A DNA stretch of 64,000 bases, taken from Marinobacterium rhizophilum DSM 18822 (GTDB taxonomy: Bacteria > Pseudomonadota > Gammaproteobacteria > Pseudomonadales > Balneatricaceae). The stretch is from assembly GCF_000378045.1 (NCBI RefSeq), contig NZ_KB899100.1, positions 1-64,000 on the forward strand, given 5' to 3'. Positions within the stretch are counted from its first letter, which is position 1; each line of letters begins with the position of its first letter. Positions 27,208 to 30,546 of this stretch are shown here, one piece after another. The notes under the pieces were generated by a model, which saw only the letters and a program-made list of their open reading frames with translations, ran no database searches and was not told where the DNA came from. The position numbers and the translations under genes were made by a program.

Positions 27208-28080
27208 TCAGGCAATCCGGGGCCGCGCAAACCAGCGGTTCCAGCGCGCGTTGACCCACAGGGAAAGTCCGATGACGCCGCCGCCCAGAGCCAGCCGCAC
27301 GAGGTCCGCATCACGATTCCAGATCAGCAGGTTCACCACCAGTCCAGCCGGTACCAGTGCGTTATTCATGATACCCAGGGTACCGGCATCCACCTTGCAG
27401 GCACCGCGGTTCCAGCAGTAGAACCCCAGCCCCGATGCCACGATGCCCAGCCAGCCCAGCACGCTCCATTGCAGCGCCGTTGAGGGTAGTTTCCCCGGAT
27501 TGCCCAGTAACAGATAGGATGGCAGCGCCACCACAAGGGCCCCGGCGAAGAAGTAGCCAAAGCTGCGCCAGGCCGGAAGCTCCGTGGGATAACGCCGCAT
27601 CAGGTTGGCATAACCCACCTGGCCCGCGGCAAAGGCCACGTTGGCCAGTTGCAGCAGCAAAAAGCCAAACATGAAGTCATCACTCAGGCCGTCGTACCGG
27701 ATGATGGCCGCCCCCACCACGGCCAGTGCCGTCCCTGCCAGCGGGGCCAGCGAGAAGCGCCGGTTGAGCGCATCGTCTATCAGCGTGACATACAACGGCG
27801 TGAAGATCGTAAACAACAGCACTTCCGGCACGCTCAGATACTCGAACGAGCGATACAGGCACAGGTAGGTCAACCCGAATTGCAGCATGCCCACGAAGGT
27901 AATGCCTGTGCGCAGGGGCGCCGGAATCCCGCGCCAGCGTGTCAGCGGCAAAAAGATAAGACCCGCCAGTACGATACGGGTGGTCACGGCAAAGTAGCGG
28001 TCTACCTGACCCGCAAGATACTCGCCAATCAGGCTGAACGAAATGGCCCACAACAGCGTAACCAGCACTAGGTTTGTCAT
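27208..28080 (-). CDS. EamA/DMT-superfamily transporter
   Basis: A 290-residue inner-membrane protein with ten hydrophobic segments arranged as two five-segment EamA repeats. The first starts LVLVTLLWAISFSLIGEYLAG and the second lies around FGFLLLQLANVAFAAGQVGYA. Family members move amino acids, amines or carboxylates, usually outwards. The substrate cannot be inferred. It appears to be monocistronic, convergent with the LysR gene and divergent from the PA2779-type gene. Confidence 0.87.
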   Translation of the reverse strand: MTNLVLVTLLWAISFSLIGEYLAGQVDRYFAVTTRIVLAGLIFLPLTRWRGIPAPLRTGITFVGMLQFGLTYLCLYRSFEYLSVPEVLLFTIFTPLYVTLIDDALNRRFSLAPLAGTALAVVGAAIIRYDGLSDDFMFGFLLLQLANVAFAAGQVGYANLMRRYPTELPAWRSFGYFFAGALVVALPSYLLLGNPGKLPSTALQWSVLGWLGIVASGLGFYCWNRGACKVDAGTLGIMNNALVPAGLVVNLLIWNRDADLVRLALGGGVIGLSLWVNARWNRWFARPRIA

Positions 28081-28259
28081 ATTCCGTCACGTCCGGTCGT
28101 TACTTTCGGGGGGCCATTTTAAGGTAACGAATTCGAAAAACCATGATTGGATTCAACAAGTTCATCTCATATTCATTCATATGCGACTAAGCTTCATTCA
28201 GGCTTAAAACCGCAGGCCAACACCGGCACCTGCCGTGTTCTGCCTCAAGGAGGACTTCA

Positions 28260-28667
28260 ATGCTCATGCAGCAATCCCGCATCGTTCGTTCCGTTGTCGC
28301 CCGTCTCATGATGGGCTGCATGTTACTCATCTCTGGTCTGGCACAGGCAGCCCCCGTATCCACTTCAACCCTGATCGCGCCCCAAAGTGTCGTGGCCACC
28401 GACGCAGAGCGTGAAAAGCTGATGAACCTGATTCAGCGCGATGATGTCGCCGAGCAGCTCAGCGCCTTTGGCGTCGACCCTGTCGACGCACAGATGCGCG
28501 TTGCTGACATGTCCGCGGCAGAAGTGGCCGACCTTAACCAGCAGATTGAATCCCTGCCGGCAGGTGCCGGCGTCATCGGTGCCATCGTGCTGATCTTTAT
28601 CGTCTTCATCATTACCGACGCGCTCGGGGCGACCAATATCTTCAACTTTGTTCACCCGATACGCTAA
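28260..28667 (+). CDS. PA2779-family small exported membrane protein
   Basis: A 135-residue protein resembling the Pseudomonas PA2779 family of unknown function. A signal peptide covers about residues 1-30 (LISGLAQAAP). A short helical region follows (DAEREKLMNLIQRDDVAEQLSAFGVDPVDAQMRV), then SLPAGAGVIGAIVLIFIVFIITDAL as a C-terminal membrane segment. AGGAGG lies 6 bp before the ATG. It is followed after 25 bp by a C39-type peptidase lipoprotein, as in Pseudomonas. The glycine-alanine step before the hydrophobic tail makes it a possible substrate of that peptidase, which is an untested inference. Confidence 0.8.
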   Translation: MLMQQSRIVRSVVARLMMGCMLLISGLAQAAPVSTSTLIAPQSVVATDAEREKLMNLIQRDDVAEQLSAFGVDPVDAQMRVADMSAAEVADLNQQIESLPAGAGVIGAIVLIFIVFIITDALGATNIFNFVHPIR

Positions 28668-28692
28668 CCATGGCCAAGGAGCTTGTGAACAC

Positions 28693-29766
28693 GTGCCAAT
28701 GATCCCTGGCTTCGAGTGCGATCCGGAATCTGGCCGCTATCACAAAGGCAGGCGGGTTGCCTGCCAGCTCCTTAACCGCCTTAACTCCGCCGTCCTGCTG
28801 ACGGCGGGGGCTCTCTGCCTGCTGCTGCTCAGTGGGTGCGCAACTCGCTTGCCCTCAGACCAGCTGGCCACCTTATCCAATACTCTGCCGGTCACAACTG
28901 AGCTGACCGCGGTTCCGTTTTATCCACAGGAACTGTATCAGTGCGGCCCCGCGGCGCTGGCCACCGTGTTGAACAATAACGCAGCGGTCACCACCCCAGA
29001 CGCCCTGGTACCCCAGATCTACATTCCCGCGCGTGGAGGCAGTCTGCAGATCGAAATGAAGGTCGCGGCACGGCGCCATGGCATGCTGGCGATGGAAGCC
29101 CCTCCCAACCTGAATGGACTGCTGGCCGAAGTCGCGGCCGGACGGCCCGTGGTGGTGTTGCAAAACCTGGGGCTGGATATCATTCCACGCTGGCATTATG
29201 CCGTGGTGATCGGTTTTGACCTCCAGGCACAGACCGTCATCCTGCGTTCAGGCACAGAACCCCGCCGCATCACGCCGCTCAAGCTGTTTGACCGCACCTG
29301 GGCGCGCAGTGAGCGCTGGGCCTTGCTTGTGCTGCCGCCGTCACAGCTTCCGTTGCAAGCAGAACCGCTGGATGTCGTGCGTGCGGCGCTGGAACTCGAA
29401 ACCTCTGCACCAGAGGCCGCACTGCAAAGTCTGCACAGCGCCAGCACGCGCTGGCCCGATGACTACCTCGTTGCCATGGCACTTGGCAACGCAGAACTGA
29501 GTGCCGGTCACGCAAGGCCCGCCAGCCAGGCTTTTCGCAAGGCGCTGAAGCTAAAGCCCGCCGCAGCGGATGCCTGGAATAACCTGGCCTATAGCCTTGC
29601 AGCCGAGGGTTGCGATCAGAGCGCACTGTCTGCGGTTCAATGCGCCGTCCGCCTGCCCCCGGCAAGCGCCGCCGTCCAGGATAGCCTGCGGGAACTGTCC
29701 GCCAGCAAAAAACGCAACCAGGCTCAGTGCGCACCGATACCGGCCTGTCCGGTACCGGCAAATTAA
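28693..29766 (+). CDS. PA2778-family C39-type cysteine peptidase lipoprotein with TPR repeats
   Basis: A protein of about 357 residues. A long N-terminus ends in the lipobox LLSGC (Cys about residue 47). A C39-like papain fold follows with catalytic Cys in YQCGPAALATVL and His in RWHYAVVIGF. The C-terminal third is TPR-like (MALGNAELSAGHARPASQAFRKALKLKPAAADAWNNLAYSLA). It is probably anchored to a membrane facing the periplasm. The GTG at 28693 lies 11 bp after AAGGAG and is preferred, but ATG at 28699 is possible. C39 enzymes usually cut after double-glycine leaders; here the neighbour encoded upstream is the obvious candidate substrate or partner. Confidence 0.82.
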   Translation: MPMIPGFECDPESGRYHKGRRVACQLLNRLNSAVLLTAGALCLLLLSGCATRLPSDQLATLSNTLPVTTELTAVPFYPQELYQCGPAALATVLNNNAAVTTPDALVPQIYIPARGGSLQIEMKVAARRHGMLAMEAPPNLNGLLAEVAAGRPVVVLQNLGLDIIPRWHYAVVIGFDLQAQTVILRSGTEPRRITPLKLFDRTWARSERWALLVLPPSQLPLQAEPLDVVRAALELETSAPEAALQSLHSASTRWPDDYLVAMALGNAELSAGHARPASQAFRKALKLKPAAADAWNNLAYSLAAEGCDQSALSAVQCAVRLPPASAAVQDSLRELSASKKRNQAQCAPIPACPVPAN

Positions 29767-29836
29767 TTGAACCCTGCAACAAATCTGCAATCACAGTCGC
29801 GTACAATGATGCATAACAATAATGGAGAGAAAGCCT

Positions 29837-30040
29837 ATGGATCACCATAAACTGAGCACCCAGCTCAAACAGCTGCTAAAACAGGGCTACTCGAAGGATG
29901 AAATCCGCAACCTCGTCATTGCGCCCCGCGCGCAAGTAGAGCAGGCACTGTGCGAATTACAGACCCAGTACAACCGCGAACAGCAACACGCCCGCGTAGT
30001 CAGGGGGCAGGCTGATTTCGCTATTTCAATGCGCCGCTGA
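29837..30040 (+). CDS. Small hypothetical protein
   Basis: A 67-residue, largely helical, charged protein (MDHHKLSTQLKQLLKQGYSKDEIRNLVI, then AQVEQALCELQTQYNREQQ). The family is not recognised. GGAGAG lies about 9 bp before the ATG at 29837, and the composition looks protein-like. It follows the peptidase gene by 70 bp and may be co-transcribed. A DNA- or protein-binding helix pair is possible, but no function is claimed. Confidence 0.55.
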   Translation: MDHHKLSTQLKQLLKQGYSKDEIRNLVIAPRAQVEQALCELQTQYNREQQHARVVRGQADFAISMRR

Positions 30041-30240
30041 CAACAGCGTCGCACACTGCACCTCCCCCCTTTTAGCTATCGCCCCTTCCTGACAAGTTCT
30101 GCCCTGCCCCAGTCGCGACCACCTCTCCAGCCGGTATTCAGCCAGCATTCACTGCCAATAGTCTATTTACATTAACGAGAGACTGGTCCTAAACTTCGGT
30201 TGTTTTTGAACCGACTTACGAGCCTTGAAGGATAACAACG

Positions 30241-30546
30241 ATGAAAAAAACACTGATCCTGGCCGCGATCGCTGCGCTGTCCCTGCCAATGACCGCCAAT
30301 GCGGAACGCACCGGCGAAGAAATTTACAACACCAAATGTGGTGTTTGCCACGCGGCGGGCATTGCTGGTGCCCCCCTGTTCGGTAATGCAGAAGAGTGGG
30401 CGCCCCGCGCCGCCAAGGGTATCGATGCCCTGCTGGCCAGCGCCAAAACCGGCCTGAATGCCATGCCGCCGATGGGCACCTGCATGGACTGCTCCGATAC
30501 AGAGCTGACCGCCGCCATTCAGTACATGCTGGACGCCGCCAAGTAA
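30241..30546 (+). CDS. Cytochrome c5-type periplasmic cytochrome
   Basis: A 101-residue exported class I cytochrome. The signal peptide is residues 1-21 (cut after NA). Haem attaches at Cys33-Gly-Val-Cys36-His37, with a probable axial Met in NAMPPMG near 78-81. The later GTCMDCSD pair matches the extra disulfide typical of cytochrome c5. It would carry electrons in the periplasm to a terminal oxidase or reductase. A good AAGGA site precedes the ATG. Single gene, ending in a bidirectional terminator. Confidence 0.9.
   Translation: MKKTLILAAIAALSLPMTANAERTGEEIYNTKCGVCHAAGIAGAPLFGNAEEWAPRAAKGIDALLASAKTGLNAMPPMGTCMDCSDTELTAAIQYMLDAAK

Follow-up and report, generated by a model that had tools for sequence, protein, structure and literature searches.

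The cleavage site of C39 peptidases follows GG, GA or GS, and the leader has anchors at positions -4, -7 and -12, as laid out in the available part of PMC6363468. A periplasmic member of this group is FapD, whose catalytic cysteine is needed in vivo for FapC secretion according to the accessible text of its description (PMC5557850). A glycine motif also occurs in GlyGly-CTERM, which the available portion of PMC3237569 describes as a three-part signal made of a Gly motif, a membrane helix and a basic end. The gene pair analyzed here is the one formed by the PA2779 family (NF033919 / PF20332) and the PA2778 family (NF033920), for which a search by gene names and family accessions returned passing mentions only and no functional study. 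In the accessible portions of individual reports, a transposon insertion was located in the stretch that separates PA2779 from bswR (PA2780), a divergently oriented regulator gene (PMC3985676), a PA2778 start-codon change was recorded in one clone (PMC3697988), and in P. stutzeri DSM4166 a PA2779-family gene was among 26 promoters chosen from 39 genes, all 39 ranking among the 3% most highly expressed in each of the four samples (PMC10155442).

Results

The window (the whole 64,000-nt stretch of DNA analyzed) carries, for DUF6627 and for the PA2778-family peptidase alike, the one place that scores above cut-off in its genome (Table 1). The product of the first gene matched PF20332 DUF6627 (E 2e-36, 125.3 bits, cut-off 27) and the NF033919 PA2779 family (126 bits, cut-off 40) and, with both curated profiles well above cut-off, is a DUF6627 protein by these matches. 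Its residue A30, at the end of the signal peptide, is conserved in at least 90% of the DUF6627 alignment, and SLPAGAG occupies residues 98-104, followed by a hydrophobic stretch and a tail. The AlphaFold2 model of this protein is moderate (pLDDT 73.9, pTM 0.46), with pLDDT of 69-92 in the ten-residue blocks of the helical domain and a low-confidence predicted helix at 105-121 (blocks of 53-73). A fold comparison of the helical domain with the PDB gave nothing at E up to 0.001, and a sequence search with this domain gave no convincing match (best E 0.019).

Table 1. Position and supporting evidence of the features of the DUF6627-peptidase pair in the window.
Feature	Coordinates	Strand	Evidence
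Ribosome-binding site AAGGAGG of DUF6627 gene	28247..28253	+	Sequence, 6 nt 5' of ATG
DUF6627 / PA2779-family gene, 135 aa, proposed substrate or partner	28260..28667	+	ORF list, profile matches
Signal peptide, residues 1-30, AQA end	28260..28349	+	Sequence by eye
Helical domain, predicted helices 43-59, 61-69, 74-83, 86-98	28386..28553	+	AlphaFold2 model
PAGAG junction, residues 100-104, proposed cleavage region	28557..28571	+	Gly102 conservation, model
Hydrophobic segment and tail, residues 105-135	28572..28664	+	Predicted helix 105-121, conserved last columns
PA2778-family C39 cysteine peptidase lipoprotein with TPR, 355 aa	28699..29766	+	Profile matches, model
Lipobox Cys47 codon	28837..28839	+	Invariant in 22/22 aligned proteins
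Putative catalytic Cys82 codon	28942..28944	+	Invariant in 22/22; C39 fold match
Putative catalytic His166 codon	29194..29196	+	Invariant in 22/22; absent in 19/19 unlinked relatives checked
TPR region, residues ~258-323	29470..29667	+	Pfam TPR models, TPR structures among fold matches

The product of the second gene, read from the ATG at 28699 (a GTG at 28693 is a possible alternative start), matched the NF033920 PA2778-family cysteine peptidase (338.6 bits, cut-off 150) and Peptidase_C39_2 (29.5 bits, cut-off 24), together with several TPR models that each stayed under their own Pfam cut-off. It has the lipobox LLSGC47 with an alanine directly after the cysteine, and no ABC transporter match was found in its 355 residues in Pfam and NCBIfam profile searches. 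The model of the peptidase is good (pLDDT 91.7, pTM 0.82); its C39 part superimposes on 3erv (Z 16.9, 2.1 A over 151 residues) and on 6mpz (Z 15.8, 2.3 A over 135), the structure of a double-glycine protease in complex with a leader, and its C-terminal part matches TPR structures. With Cys and His in a predicted papain-like fold, the product is a C39 peptidase as judged from sequence and model, and by its putative lipobox and TPRs without ABC fusion it is not one of the exporter type, which is joined to an ABC exporter and works on the cytosolic side. The preliminary description had read the small protein as a signal peptide, a helical linker, SLPAGAG and a hydrophobic tail, and the next gene as a C39-like peptidase with TPRs and a lipobox. 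Both readings are borne out, the former by the sequence and the DUF6627 match and the latter by NF033920, Peptidase_C39_2 and LLSGC47.

DUF6627 was found above cut-off at 42 places in 40 of 398 Pseudomonadota genomes, and at all 42 the peptidase gene came next on the same strand, 108-245 nt downstream (profile edge to edge). Two sub-cut-off DUF6627 matches were omitted from this count (one in G269, with internal stops, and a second one in G044), and the co-occurrence P value was set aside, given the lack of independence between genomes. With an E limit of 1e-20, the same 398 genomes had seven more peptidase-like places without adjacent DUF6627, six of them in one genus and one distant (G113). 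Furthermore, a scan with the peptidase alignment over one genome per species (84,980 species) gave at least 586 confirmed candidates, and DUF6627 lay nearby on the same strand in all 80 loci that were fetched with a peptidase, these being the best 80 and hence closer relatives. In a sample of 149 genomes of a Pseudomonas-type genus, so called after loci that it shares with named records, a full-length peptidase was present in 18 and DUF6627 was adjacent in the same 18. The DUF6627 profile also matched in 61 of 247 genomes from the phylum of a Desulfobacteraceae genome (Desulfobacterota), where a complete C39 domain with Cys and His stood beside DUF6627 in 26 of the best 30 loci; at the remaining four (L185, L212, L216, L220) no complete peptidase was seen within the short flanks. 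The active-site tally on this side counts 26 of 29 loci with Cys and His, and the short flanks of the other three gave no complete peptidase match. Judging by record titles, the pair is present in Pseudomonas, Marinobacter, Stutzerimonas, Thiobacillus, Methylophaga and others, and three loci (L117, L163, L170) carry a tandem pair of DUF6627 genes before a single peptidase gene. Only 2 of 72,556 plasmid records matched, and viral contigs gave no relative with one protein (L012) as the query. The pairing is near-obligate and conserved far beyond chance. Conservation of the gene pair, named beforehand as a check, holds beyond close relatives up to the Desulfobacteraceae phylum, and the earlier view of a conserved but uncharacterized pair stands, with 42/42 and 80/80 loci linked and no functional study found under the gene names or family accessions.

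Further conserved neighbors were looked for and rejected: among the 80 loci and the window, nothing but the pair and a reverse-strand frame overlapping it formed a cluster shared by more than 24 loci, and smaller clusters were read by eye as frames of one Pseudomonas neighborhood (infC/thrS-type). The neighbors in the window were read by eye as transporters, cytochrome c and motor-type genes. A 67-codon ORF (29837-30040) is present in the window and had been suggested as a possible third member. This suggestion is rejected: of the 115 genomes of the order, two contain the ORF, and one of these is the window genome. The other (G304, from the family of the window genome) has a relative of 44% identity, with the same motor-type genes close by (read by eye), but had no match to DUF6627 or the peptidase family in the searches of 398 genomes. 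PADLOC defence models gave 0 matches for three proteins at E up to 0.01. A promoter scan of 28050-30300 returned no consensus site upstream of 28260; the same interval has six terminator-like sites, where shuffled sequence gives 2.0 (sd 1.6), and the gap between the two genes contains no such site.

The active site is retained in the linked peptidases that were counted. Cys and His were kept in 42/42 linked peptidases of the phylum sample and in 80/80 named loci, the latter with a bias as the scan pattern itself included the Cys, and Q77, C82, H166 and D174 were kept in 18/18 linked peptidases of the genus sample. In the phylum sample, 11 whole linked peptidases show the active-site Cys in another context, as CGP or, in L043, as CAP. 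At one locus (L019, G112:C9) an in-frame TAG splits the peptidase frame while the adjacent DUF6627 gene is intact. In the Pseudomonas-type genus, 125 of the 149 genomes carry a short C39-like form only. C82 and H166 were absent in all 19 short forms checked, a subset from the phylum and genus samples (L051-L056, L076-L087, L101), and on the peptidase tree (92 sequences, 147 columns) these 19 fall in one clade with a support of 0.997, nested within active Pseudomonas-type sequences. They therefore count as one loss event and not as nineteen. Two of them (L051, L101) adjoin oxidoreductase and thrS-type genes (names by eye) in the order seen beside the intact pair in 10 other fetched loci, and a search for a DUF6627 remnant in 11 loci of the inactive clade gave nothing better than E 0.79. 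The sole clade seen with active-site loss is thus a clade without adjacent DUF6627, and the inactive C39-like form seems to be retained for some use without catalysis.

Seven genomes of the genus sample (L088-L094) hold a second type of DUF6627 without an adjacent peptidase, near genes read as trpS- and scpA-type. These lone paralogues have PAGG or PAAG in 7/7, followed by a hydrophobic helix and no tail. The active pair is also present in six of these seven genomes; the exception, G517, has the lone paralogue, and both peptidase-like genes found in it are inactive forms. In the divergent branch, C39 and TPR-range matches fall on separate ORFs in six loci (L207, L210, L213-L215, L218), which suggests from the reading frames that C39 and TPR are separate genes there and fused in the window lineage; the alternative would be a frameshift in each of the six loci. 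A distant variant in G113 (L057 2078-5763) encodes a lipoprotein with TPR and C39 in swapped order, preceded by a 291-aa exported protein with weak DUF6627 resemblance (20 bits) and followed by a gene read by eye as caspase-like. Weak DUF6627 matches in long frames of four other genomes (G429, G430, G470, G493) were absent at E up to 1 with our own profile and were discarded as chance.

The junction ahead of the hydrophobic segment is strongly conserved around one glycine. Of 175 distinct DUF6627 proteins, 170 have Gly in the Gly102 column and the other 5 have Ala, and the following column, in which 17 of the 175 have no residue, holds G in 78, A in 57, E in 12, S in 8 and Q in 2 of 158, that is, G, A or S in 143/158. 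In the divergent branch (L207-L224) the boundary is GGD in 18 of 19 proteins (e.g. QAGGD, YPGGD, KVGGD, TAGGD), with PAGD in L208 as the exception. In the AlphaFold2 model the junction sits between the predicted helices 86-98 and 105-121. If the cut came after PAG, hydrophobic positions would fit the anchors -4 and -7; if it came after PAGG, Ala would lie at -3 and a hydrophobic residue at -12. The canonical leader register was rejected, as neither cut fits all the published anchors. In addition, E or Q after the Gly in 14/158 argues, at the level of the alignment, against a strictly canonical cut, and a Gly hinge ahead of a membrane helix could be purely structural.

The tail of DUF6627 has a mean entropy of 1.30 bits in 10 columns against 2.20 in the helical domain, and this higher conservation indicates that it is more than a generic anchor. 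The last 12 residues carry a mean net charge of +1.33 over the 175 proteins. Among the 135 proteins with tails that fit the pattern, out of the 175, 52 have two cysteines, one at the end of the hydrophobic stretch and one near the C-terminus, 83 have neither and none has just one. This Cys pair was seen in L010-L013, L021, L050, L109 and others, and the window protein lacks it. As this pattern needs two changes on the peptidase tree (65 leaves), the evidence rests on two origins. Co-occurrence suggests that the two residues may form a disulfide, which would place the end of the tail on the oxidizing side, in conflict with a simple periplasm-to-cytoplasm helix; a reduced metal site or a partner site is an alternative.

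Discussion

Our preferred reading is that the pair constitutes a self-contained two-gene envelope processing cassette in which the lipoprotein cuts DUF6627 at the junction, with the cutting, its site and the role of DUF6627 as substrate all being inferred. We give this reading a probability of roughly 0.52, and put the chance of the cleavage step itself at about even. DUF6627 would be exported by Sec with removal of its signal peptide, and would then present a small helical domain that is connected through a flexible PAG-[A/G] junction to a hydrophobic, conserved C-terminal segment. The C39 lipoprotein would bind the helical part, possibly with help of its TPRs, and cut at the PAG/GG junction outside the cytoplasm, parting the helical domain from the hydrophobic peptide. 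FapD, a periplasmic C39 enzyme that needs its Cys, serves as a precedent for this reading. The periplasmic processing system put forward in the preliminary description is in this way supported in part: the pair and the fit of the junction speak for it, with PAGAG as the likely cut site, but some lineages depart from the canonical double-glycine sequence there. Further observations count against cleavage. G517 keeps a DUF6627 paralogue while the peptidase-like genes found in it are inactive, and DUF6627 stands without a complete peptidase seen beside it in 4/30 loci of the Desulfobacteraceae phylum. By the +2 rule, an alanine after the lipobox cysteine points to the outer membrane, which would put the lipoprotein far from an inner-membrane tail.

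The product that is separated could be either the helical domain, set free from its anchor, or the hydrophobic peptide, and the conservation of the tail together with its Cys pair makes the second option worth testing. A stronger form of it, which we regard as unlikely, takes DUF6627 as a prepropeptide whose helical domain would serve as exported leader and chaperone and whose last ~30 residues would be freed as a mature hydrophobic envelope peptide, disulfide-closed in Pseudomonas and relatives. If this were true, double-glycine maturation would have shifted to a place outside the cytoplasm and lost its coupling to an ABC exporter, and the peptide would be abundant.

The main rival to cleavage of DUF6627, somewhat improbable in our judgment, is that DUF6627 acts as a dedicated membrane adaptor or activator while the peptidase cuts other envelope proteins, PAGAG being a hinge. 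The pairing, the co-loss and the conserved tail are as compatible with a binding partner as with a substrate, and the residue after the junction Gly varies; but an adaptor alone leaves the near-invariant junction Gly and the GGD of the divergent branch unexplained, and the lone paralogues with PAGG or PAAG (7/7) look more like extra substrates. The presence of short C39-like forms as the only form in 125/149 genomes of the genus, with Cys and His absent in 19/19 checked, brings in another possibility, namely that the C39 domain mainly binds or chaperones DUF6627, as C39-like domains do in some type I exporters, with cutting being incidental. This we consider quite improbable, as Cys and His are kept in the linked peptidases (42/42 in the phylum sample, 18/18 in the genus sample) and the inactive forms checked do not adjoin DUF6627. 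Finally, the motif, the membrane helix and the net positive end (+1.33) recall the three-part GlyGly-CTERM signals in the available text of PMC3237569, so that the cut before the membrane segment might be coupled to transfer of the helical domain onto another envelope molecule, in a sorting system like rhombosortase or sortase. Here one or a few dedicated proteins were seen instead of a many-to-one relation, no acceptor is known, and no GlyGly-CTERM appeared among the NCBIfam matches of the window protein at E up to 1 in a library where presence of that model is unconfirmed; we hold such sorting to be very improbable.

That no role is known for a strongly expressed envelope protein with a dedicated protease is an obvious gap, and thanks to the GG junction the cleavage question can be tested. 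Both families are already known by name; what would be new is this arrangement of C39 processing, which rests on conservation and co-loss. The window peptidase resembles LahT150 (6mpz), ComA (3k8u) and PCAT1 (9azl) in its predicted C39 fold (Z 15.8, 15.4 and 15.0, respectively, for the model) and in its Cys/His active site. Unlike peptidase-containing ABC exporters, it is a lipoprotein with TPRs and without an ABC domain, and its proposed substrate would be Sec-exported and cut before a C-terminal hydrophobic segment, not after an N-terminal leader. DUF6627 shares with GlyGly-CTERM proteins, as portrayed in the accessible text on that signal, the Gly motif, the membrane helix and the basic end; rhombosortase, in contrast, is a rhomboid serine protease with a many-to-one relation to its targets, whereas the window encodes a soluble-type cysteine peptidase with an adjacent partner. 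Compared by description, and within what the available text on FapD states, both are C39 peptidases, FapD being active in the periplasm and the window lipoprotein being predicted to lie outside the cytoplasm, but FapD is encoded in fapABCDEF, the Pseudomonas operon for functional amyloid. If cleavage at the junction is true, DUF6627 would give extracytoplasmic C39 activity a defined substrate, something that is lacking for FapD in that same text.
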